This document shows, in pieces, positions 2,478 through 31,967 of a stretch of DNA of 37,974 nucleotides. The DNA is from Phaffia rhodozyma. Its lineage: Eukaryota > Basidiomycota > Tremellomycetes > Cystofilobasidiales > Mrakiaceae. Location of the stretch: contig JACGZH010000016.1 in the NCBI GenBank assembly GCA_014706385.1, positions 1 to 37,974 on the forward strand, read 5' to 3'. Below the pieces are notes generated by a model. That model saw only the letters and a list, made by a program, of their open reading frames with translations. It did no database searches and had not been told where the DNA came from. Position 1 is the first letter of the stretch. Each line of letters opens with the position of its first letter. The position numbers and the translations under genes are program-made.

Positions 2478-2951
2478 TTTTTGTTCGGCCCGTCTGGGCG
2501 GGTGGCGTGGTCGGTGTAGGGTTACTTGCTGTGTCAGTTGCTGGGTTGATGGGAGGTCATAGGATTACAGAAATGCGTCCGCGGTTACATATGATGGGTA
2601 CTCTTTTTTTGCGTGGGGAAGAGAAAGGGGGGGGAGGGGGAAGGGGGAGGGAAGAGGGGGGAAGAGGGGAAGAGGGGGGAAAGGAGGGGGGAAAAGAGGG
2701 GGGCCCTCTTTCCCTTCTTTTCCCTTTTTCCTTTTTTTTCTTTTCTTCTTTTTTTTCTTTTTTCTTCTTTTTTTTTCTGTCAACGATAGATGCATCAATA
2801 TAGAAAGAGAAAAAGACATATGGCAGAAAGACAACAGCATAACAATGGCAACACAGTAAAAACATAGCGAGAACACAACGAGAACACAACCATGCAATGC
2901 AATGCACCAGCAACACAGTGTCAACACAACAGAAAGACCAAAACAAAAGAA
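2478..2951. other. Gene-free spacer with low-complexity tract
   Basis: The longest gap in the unit. I find no B box or cloverleaf on either strand. It holds a degenerate telomere-like octamer TAGGGTTA at 2517, a long purine/pyrimidine tract, and an A-rich stretch with short AACACA-type repeats leading to the minus-strand Arg(ACG) gene. Confidence 0.8.
2615..2778. repeat. Homopurine run followed by homopyrimidine run
   Basis: An unbroken purine run (2615-2703) meets an unbroken pyrimidine run (2704-2778) around the palindrome GGGCCC. At the same place copies 2-4 have only pyrimidines on this strand. The purine half therefore looks like an opposite-strand copy of the tract: a fold-back sequencing or assembly artefact, or a local inversion. 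Confidence 0.85.
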
Positions 2952-3107
2952 GGCAAAGATCCTCGTAGTCAGACGCCTTACCGCTGGGCCACTCGGCCAG
3001 AGCGAATGGGTGGTGGGACCACTAGACCAAGACGGGGTTCGAACCCGCGATTTCCTGATGCATACAAGCTGGCAGCCGGCCATGACGACCGTTCCACCAT
3101 CTTTGCC
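2952..3107 (-). tRNA. trnR-ACG: Permuted tRNA-Arg(ACG) gene
   Basis: Arginine tRNA gene whose halves are swapped. Reading the minus strand: a 48-nt leader (3107-3060), the 3' half nt 38-73 (3059-3024: TCAGG, T arm GCGGG-TTCGAAC-CCCGT, CTTGGTC), a 25-nt linker (3023-2999), the 5' half nt 1-37 (2998-2963: GGCCGAG, A box TGGCCCAGCGG, D stem GCC/GGC, TCTGA, anticodon ACG at 2964-2966), and an 11-nt trailer. The acceptor GGCCGAG/CTTGGTC pairs 7 of 7 and the anticodon stem TCTGA/TCAGG 5 of 5 (wobbles included). Leader start GGCAAAGAT is the exact complement of trailer end ATCTTTGCC. T4 runs follow the trailer, so one Pol III transcript could cover both halves. Known permuted tRNAs mature through a circular intermediate; that this one does is inference. 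Confidence 0.88.
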
Positions 3108-3292: not shown

Positions 3293-3376
3293 GGTCGCCT
3301 GGTCTAGTGGTATGACGCTTGCTTCACATCTCACCCGGTGCGCAATAGGTCGCCAGTTCGATCCTGGCGGTGACCA
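3293..3376 (+). tRNA. trnV-CAC: tRNA-Val(CAC), 12-nt intron
   Basis: Valine tRNA reading GUG. Acceptor GGTCGCC/GGTGACC, A73; D arm GTC/GAC; anticodon stem CTTGC/GCAAT, with the outer C27 x T43 unpaired in every copy; anticodon CAC at 3325-3327; intron 3329-3340. T arm GCCAG/CTGGC. T5 stop at 3384-3388. A lone plus-strand gene between minus-strand neighbours. Confidence 0.9.
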
Positions 3377-5179: not shown

Positions 5180-5278
5180 GGCCGATTGGTGTAGTGGCTA
5201 TCACAGCAGTTTTCGGTACTCGTCCGCAAGGTCGTCTTCGCTCGCTGCTGGTCGTCGGTTCGATCCCGACATCGGTCT
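5180..5278 (+). tRNA. trnR-UCG: tRNA-Arg(TCG), 26-nt intron
   Basis: Arginine tRNA. Acceptor GGCCGAT/ATCGGTC; D arm GTG/CAC with GGC in the loop; T arm GTCGG/CCGAC. Counting from the D arm puts the stem at GCAGT/GCTGC and the anticodon TCG at 5213-5215, G37, intron 5217-5242. Shifting the stem by one base would give Glu(TTC), but then base 26 has no place and a clean Glu(TTC) gene exists elsewhere. T5 stop at 5289-5293. Confidence 0.8.
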
Positions 5279-7696: not shown

Positions 7697-7782
7697 TGCC
7701 GTCAGCCTGAATCGAACAGGCGACCTTATGATTGCGGACAGATGTCTTCAGTCATACGCTCCACCAATTGAGCTATGACGGC
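7697..7782 (-). tRNA. trnF-GAA: tRNA-Phe(GAA), 13-nt intron
   Basis: Phenylalanine tRNA. Acceptor GCCGTCA/TGACGGC perfect, A73; D arm GCTC/GAGC; anticodon stem TATGA/TCATA; anticodon GAA at 7747-7749; intron 7733-7745 after G37. The A10 run at 7683-7692 is the stop on this strand. Confidence 0.95.
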
Positions 7783-12627: not shown

Positions 12628-12783
12628 GGCAAAGATCCTCGTAGTCAGACGCCTTACCGCTGGGCCACTCGGCCAGAGCGAATGGGTGGTGGGACCACTA
12701 GACCAAGACGGGGTTCGAACCCGCGATTTCCTGATGCATACAAGCTGGCAGCCGGCCATGACGACCGTTCCACCATCTTTGCC
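12628..12783 (-). tRNA. trnR-ACG: Permuted tRNA-Arg(ACG) gene
   Basis: Second copy, identical over all 156 nt to copy 1. The 3' half is at 12700-12735, the linker at 12675-12699 and the 5' half at 12639-12674; leader and trailer ends remain complementary over 9 bases. Confidence 0.88.
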
Positions 12784-22264: not shown

Positions 22265-22420
22265 GGCAAAGATCCTCGTAGTCAGACGCCTTACCGCTGG
22301 GCCACTCGGCCAGAGCGAATGGGTGGTGGGACCACTAGACCAAGACGGGGTTCGAACCCGCGATTTCCTGATGCATACAAGCTGGCAGCCGGCCATGACG
22401 ACCGTTCCACCATCTTTGCC
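22265..22420 (-). tRNA. trnR-ACG: Permuted tRNA-Arg(ACG) gene
   Basis: Third copy, identical over 156 nt. The 3' half is at 22337-22372, the linker at 22312-22336 and the 5' half at 22276-22311. It lies about 460 bases left of the telomere tract. Confidence 0.88.
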
Positions 22421-31811: not shown

Positions 31812-31967
31812 GGCAAAGATCCTCGTAGTCAGACGCCTTACCGCTGGGCCACTCGGCCAGAGCGAATGGGTGGTGGGACCACTAGACCAAGACGGGGTTC
31901 GAACCCGCGATTTCCTGATGCATACAAGCTGGCAGCCGGCCATGACGACCGTTCCACCATCTTTGCC
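31812..31967 (-). tRNA. trnR-ACG: Permuted tRNA-Arg(ACG) gene
   Basis: Fourth copy, identical over 156 nt. The 3' half is at 31884-31919, the linker at 31859-31883 and the 5' half at 31823-31858. Confidence 0.88.

Follow-up and report, generated by a model that had tools for sequence, protein, structure and literature searches.

The window, by which we mean the whole stretch of DNA analyzed (37,974 nt, positions 1-37,974 of contig C5 in a genome of 19.77 Mb and 15 contigs), contains four tandem units of approximately 9.6 kb each, and in the first of these units, the two halves of a tRNA-Arg(ACG) lie on the minus strand in swapped order. Read 5' to 3', the 3' half comes first, with nt 38-72 at 3059-3025, and the 5' half follows, with nt 1-37 at 2998-2963 and CTACGA at its end; between nt 72 and nt 1 lies a spacer of 26 nt (2999-3024) that includes nt 73, a T at 3024; assigned to the 3' half, this residue leaves the 25 nt given in the preliminary description of the locus. 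Once rejoined, the halves form a cloverleaf in which the acceptor stem (GGCCGAG/CTTGGTC) pairs at 7 of 7 positions, wobbles included, the anticodon stem (TCTGA/TCAGG) at 5 of 5, the T stem at 5 of 5, and the D stem at 3 of 4, and in which T8, G18G19, T33, and T54T55C56 can be read from the sequence. The coordinates, the order of the halves, the stems, and the anticodon are all as first described, including the T and D arms, which had been called normal. The anticodon loop becomes CTACGAA, with the break between CTACGA and the final A, at 37/38, and the predicted sequence across this junction includes CTACGAATCAGG. This position had been said to be the intron site of the other genes of the array, whose introns do sit just after nt 37.

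Further features of the locus accord with a tRNA gene. The B box lies in the 3' half (3045-3035), as placed by a T-arm scan and a rotated covariance model (both described below), and the rejoined sequence aligns over its full length with the yeast and human tRNA-Arg(ACG). CCA is not encoded. The T at nt 73 is shared with all of the Arg(TCT) (8/8) and Arg(TCG) (4/4) genes read in this genome, while among 30 other anticodon types, nt 73 is only T in seven and partly T in one. No TTTT run occurs within the spacer or the gene; T-runs are found at the end only, where a T-rich stretch, TTCTTTTGTTTT (2940-2951, minus strand), is a likely RNA polymerase III terminator. Read from its sequence, the locus is well supported as a tRNA-Arg(ACG) gene that is circularly permuted (type II), with its break at 37/38.

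We assessed the permuted order against chance by scanning for T-arms and seeking a 5' half either upstream (conventional) or downstream (permuted), with identical rules for both orders. Among the 137 T-arms of the window, 105 had a conventional partner and five a permuted one. Four of these five are the four copies of this gene, each scoring 34 (within one unit, conventional genes range from 29 to 42), and the fifth (19714) falls inside a conventional Lys(CTT) gene, for which the normal order scores higher, at 40. The same scan returned no permuted and two weak conventional matches in 40 dinucleotide-shuffled windows (522 T-arms), and no permuted and 12 conventional matches in 43 non-array loci (145,073 bases). 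A search for permuted tRNAs had been suggested as a check, and we built a covariance model from 20 conventional tRNAs of this genome that were rotated in silico to the permuted order, with Arg(ACG) excluded and two of 22 rotated tRNAs (TTC and GAA) left out. Although it had no Arg(ACG) in its training, this model ranked the four window copies highest, at 49.9 bits each (E 2.3e-13, with E-values being rough), followed by three matches of 30.0 bits (E 4.6e-07) that overlap the T-arms of conventional genes; the search covered 57,974 bases and gave 201 matches at E up to 10. Other approaches were less telling: the Rfam tRNA model called none of three copies (two scanned at E up to 1 and one at the gathering score), a loose pattern led no further, with 990 matches versus 866 for its control, and yeast and human tRNA queries were uninformative, as they matched nothing, not even the known copies.

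The gene recurs in each unit of the window (12628-12783, 22265-22420, and 31812-31967, all on the minus strand), and a genome match search bore out the earlier statement that these three copies are identical to the first. Across the genome, a 14-mer from the 5' half has 44 exact sites, every one of them in the array, and six more sites with one mismatch versus 15 for a reversed control pattern. One stretch at a single mismatch from the Arg(ACG) 5'-half pattern, CCGTCTGGCTACGA, lies on the minus strand at C13:91421-91434. A search with the rejoined sequence (E up to 10) scored 40 of the 44 candidates, and all 80 matches listed are halves, forming 40 pairs in permuted order. With two further sites seen at full length and one seen as locus L083, the permuted order is observed at 43 of the 44 sites; the remaining one, C4:19211, is known from its 14-mer alone. 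No conventional Arg(ACG) gene was found in the assembled contigs by searches with the rejoined sequence, the 14-mer, or an intronless-gene pattern. The last of these yielded one site (C11:129521) versus one and four in controls, and this site was rejected as a conventional Arg(ACG) gene, having no tRNA shape by eye. Within that scope, the intronless form and the assembled array, this is, as noted earlier, the only ACG arginine gene seen. An ACG anticodon reads CGU and CGC once it is deaminated to inosine. These two codons account for 21 of the 131 arginine codons in three open frames that we read, and their relative usage is given as 0.25-0.51 in ribosomal and highly expressed frames of Phaffia rhodozyma (PMC4404019, Table 3).

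The array to which the gene belongs is present on the window contig and on C4, C6, C7, and C9-C13, in at least 44 units, which by arithmetic amount to approximately 0.4 Mb, or about 2% of the genome. When introns are allowed, ARAGORN finds 32 tRNA genes in unit 3; adding the permuted gene and Pro(CGG), which the program recognizes in unit 4 and misses in unit 3, brings the content of a unit to about 34. ARAGORN misnames intron-containing genes: those at 5180-5278, 3293-3376, and 7697-7782 are Arg(TCG), Val(CAC), and Phe(GAA) by the T-arm scan, and the one at 1891-1975 is probably, by eye, an Ala(CGC) with an intron. Contig C9, in which the locus occurs three times close to the right end, carries at 1.0 Mb a 1028-residue open frame with full-length 100% identity to a Phaffia rhodozyma kinesin-like protein, and because this contig also has the array, the array belongs to the P. 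rhodozyma genome. The array lies at the right end of C9, C12, and C13 (Arg gene on the minus strand) and at the left end of C11 (Arg gene on the plus strand), so that all four face outward, as subtelomeric arrays would, with no telomere seen. Contigs C9 and C13 terminate within it. Outside the array, dispersed tRNA genes include eight Arg(TCT) and three Thr(TGT) among loci L012-L022, as well as a Ser(GCT) with a 13-nt intron (L062). A draft genome of P. rhodozyma (305-343 scaffolds) reported 49 dispersed tRNAs of 12 anticodon species with tRNAscan-SE 1.23 (PMC5103461). The array may help to explain this number of species, since a repeat of this kind, which houses many of the tRNA genes, may be collapsed in draft assemblies; genes that are permuted or rich in introns, being hard to call, may be a further reason for the short list.

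The identity of the copies had been taken to argue for selection or recent homogenization. We aligned 23 copies, namely 19 of 20 fetched and the four from the window; L083 was omitted for small gaps in its 5' half (97.7% over 173 nt). Across 191 positions around the gene, 21 of the 23 are identical, the exceptions being L088, with one base inserted, and L090, with several bases inserted or lost. Several tRNA-free stretches nearby are equally invariant between units. The identity is therefore no argument for selection, and homogenization of the array, the other half of the original suggestion, suffices to explain it. A pyrimidine-rich tract beside the permuted gene (2600-2775) varies strongly between copies, with nearly invariant stretches on its flanks; in 2601-2790, microRNA and other Rfam matches were all under their gathering scores.

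Beyond the halves and the cloverleaf, which the preliminary description had right, it missed three aspects of the leader upstream of the 3' half: a box A, a helix with the trailer, and a resemblance to another tRNA. From the box A, TGGTGGAACGG (3089-3099, minus strand), forward to G53 of the B box the distance is 54 nt, and in conventional genes it is 43-82 nt, with a median of 55. The score of this box A, 11.3, equals the median of true box A sites. Outside tRNA genes, scores this high occur at 20 of 61,952 positions, and eight of these 20 are this gene's own 5' halves; such a box A would arise by chance in approximately 1% of cases in 40 positions, or 2% when 60 positions are considered under a looser mask. 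The permutation places A behind B, and the leader box A brings back the usual sequence of A followed by B. According to a review of permuted tRNA genes, an A box behind a B box is an order unsuitable for TFIIIC (PMC3978253, section 5), how permuted genes are transcribed when their A and B boxes are inverted is an open question, and homologs of TFC1 and TFC3 have not been found in Cyanidioschyzon merolae (PMC3978253). In the P. rhodozyma genome, the Tau95 domain of TFIIIC is matched, with none of 14 controls matching. The B-block family is matched as well, which is weak evidence for TFIIIC because the family also matches 4 of 14 prokaryote controls. A TATA-like site 10-60 nt upstream is found in none of the 105 conventional array genes, nor is one found at the permuted gene; in the review, most C. 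merolae permuted genes have such a site upstream, though not universally, and some green algal and nucleomorph ones have only an ambiguous AT-rich region (PMC3978253). Given the median-grade score, the normal spacing, the presence of Tau95, and the lack of upstream TATA-like sites, the leader box A likely substitutes for the displaced A box as a promoter element.

The leader and trailer also appear able to pair. With the cloverleaf imposed, folding predicts a helix of 11 bp between 3109-3099 and 2960-2950 (both minus strand), a length reached at 15 of 3000 random places of equal geometry. Under the same constraint, CTTGTA in the leader (3063-3068, minus strand) can pair with TACGAG (2967-2962), which spans the anticodon loop and the trailer. 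This pairing lies beside the 37/38 junction and resembles the pairing of introns with the anticodon, and many introns of the array pair near the anticodon. Two points count against the explanation favored below: the junction makes no strict 3-4-3 bulge-helix-bulge, and the free minimum-energy fold is preferred (-65.8 versus -56.2 with the cloverleaf imposed), retaining the 11-bp helix and losing the cloverleaf.

We consider it very probable that this permuted gene is transcribed as one RNA and spliced, via a circle, into a working tRNA-Arg(ACG). The proposed steps take the algal pathway as their model, for which circular intermediates have been shown, the enzymes being the review's proposal (PMC3978253, section 6). 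Specifically, RNA polymerase III would make a single RNA of leader, 3' half, spacer, 5' half, and trailer (approximately 3112 to 2940), probably from the leader A box and the B box of the 3' half, and leader-trailer pairing would close this precursor. The tRNA splicing endonuclease would cut on both sides at 37/38, and a Trl1-type ligase would join nt 37 to nt 38 to give the circle, from whose acceptor loop RNase P and tRNase Z would excise the 26-nt spacer, with CCA added thereafter. In the genome, splicing endonuclease domains match at two loci, one of them near the cut-off, and a Trl1-type ligase domain is matched.

The origin of the leader can be approached through its resemblance to another tRNA. 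The stretch at 3070-3106 (minus strand) gives an ungapped alignment with nt 1-37 of the tRNA-Asp(GTC) of this genome, in which 24 of 37 positions are identical, and is a possible relict 5' half. Six other 5' halves, two of which are variants of one gene, match it at 19-21 positions, and for each of them this register is the best one. The best local score, 14.0, was equaled in 7 of 1000 dinucleotide-shuffled sequences and none of 300 plain shuffles, and among 1521 overlapping tRNA-free stretches of one unit, none reach it, with some scoring up to 13.5. Read in this register, the seven would-be acceptor-strand bases all take part in the trailer pairing, and a T-run follows close behind, as after an ordinary tRNA. 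We rejected the leader as a worn copy of the 5' half of Arg(ACG) itself, for which a score of 6.5 was matched by 99 of 300 shuffles. These comparisons are suggestive of a leader derived from a 5' half of the tRNA-Asp type. Duplication with loss of the outer halves predicts remains of the same tRNA (PMC3978253, section 10), and because the leader resembles Asp and not Arg(ACG), a chimeric ancestor would be needed under that model. Tentatively, and with slightly less than even confidence, we propose that the leader is a fossil Asp-type 5' half kept for its A box, with its acceptor strand refitted to the trailer, such that an outer, tRNA-like shell would both promote transcription and close the ends of the permuted tRNA inside it.

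Other readings of the locus differ in how much of this they accept. One, which is a variant of our preferred explanation and compatible with it, holds that the permuted gene works but uses an upstream element, as proposed for algae, with the box A and the tRNA likeness of the leader being due to chance. The figures allow for this to some degree, as a box A this good is expected by chance in about 1-2% of cases in 40-60 positions, and the Asp similarity is equaled by some dinucleotide shuffles (7/1000) and approached by tRNA-free stretches (13.5 versus 14.0). Against it, an upstream TATA-like site is as absent here as it is from the 105 conventional genes, and Tau95 is present with no match in the 14 controls; we regard this variant as rather unlikely.

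A second alternative is that the locus is a dead relic, left when tRNA-Arg genes standing in tandem shed their outer halves, with working Arg(ACG) supplied by a conventional gene elsewhere. A dead element could persist among homogenized copies, the array reaches the ends of contigs C9 and C13, and the searches for a conventional gene had limits, in that one with an intron or in unassembled array could lie beyond them. Yet the stems are intact bar one D pair, the loop is the canonical one for Arg(ACG), nt 73 is like that of other Arg tRNAs, and the leader/trailer helix and the terminator are in place, and with no conventional Arg(ACG) found, we judge such a relic highly improbable. That the halves are instead separate transcripts joined in trans, as in a split tRNA, would fit the presence of one polymerase III box in each half (B in the 3' half and A in the 5' half), but separate transcription units were not found in the sequence, the 26-nt spacer having no terminator between the halves, and the leader and trailer of a joint RNA pair with each other, which leaves a split tRNA scarcely credible.

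Returning to the permuted gene as our preferred reading, it shares much with those already described. So far, permuted tRNA genes are on record for one archaeon, a nucleomorph, and a small number of unicellular algae, and one review counts 34 of them in six algae and one archaeon (PMC3978253). Like the reviewed genes, the one in P. rhodozyma has a 3' half, a short spacer, and a 5' half, a 37/38 junction, and a cloverleaf on rejoining; its spacer is inside the reported range of 1-74 nt, a T-run follows the 5' half, and CCA is not encoded (PMC3978253). Unlike them, it occurs in a fungus, is of a type, Arg(ACG), absent from the review's Table 1, is repeated 44 times in a tandem tRNA array, and has a leader box A, no upstream TATA-like site, and an 11-bp leader/trailer helix (PMC3978253). 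A later case, the trebouxiophyte Auxenochlorella, also has permuted nuclear tRNA genes, which were found after tRNAscan-SE gave an incomplete set, but it is a green alga, with no tRNA array in the described text (PMC12633428). Archaeal split tRNA genes likewise break at or near the anticodon, and the splicing system joins their halves, but these halves lie at separate loci (PMC4033280), whereas a single transcription unit is likely in P. rhodozyma. Tandem tRNA gene arrays that take up an appreciable share of the genome are also known from Entamoeba, where there are 25 unit types with up to five tRNA genes each, as opposed to one unit type with about 34 here (PMC2652664).

The suggestion that this array adds a new lineage to those with permuted tRNA genes is upheld by the kinesin identity on an array contig, which makes that lineage P. 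rhodozyma, a basidiomycete yeast (Tremellomycetes), and led us to reject a red alga as host. Among titles and abstract openings, in a search with most subscription literature outside its scope, we found no report of a fungus with a permuted tRNA. The occurrence in a yeast separates the permuted-tRNA trait from photosynthetic lineages and supports its repeated origin. Further, the leader box A offers a concrete answer, testable in yeast, to how polymerase III genes with inverted A and B boxes are transcribed. If the reading of the leader as a fossil 5' half is true, this would be the first permuted tRNA described for a fungus, and one with a lasting trace of the route by which genes of this kind originate and remain readable to TFIIIC.
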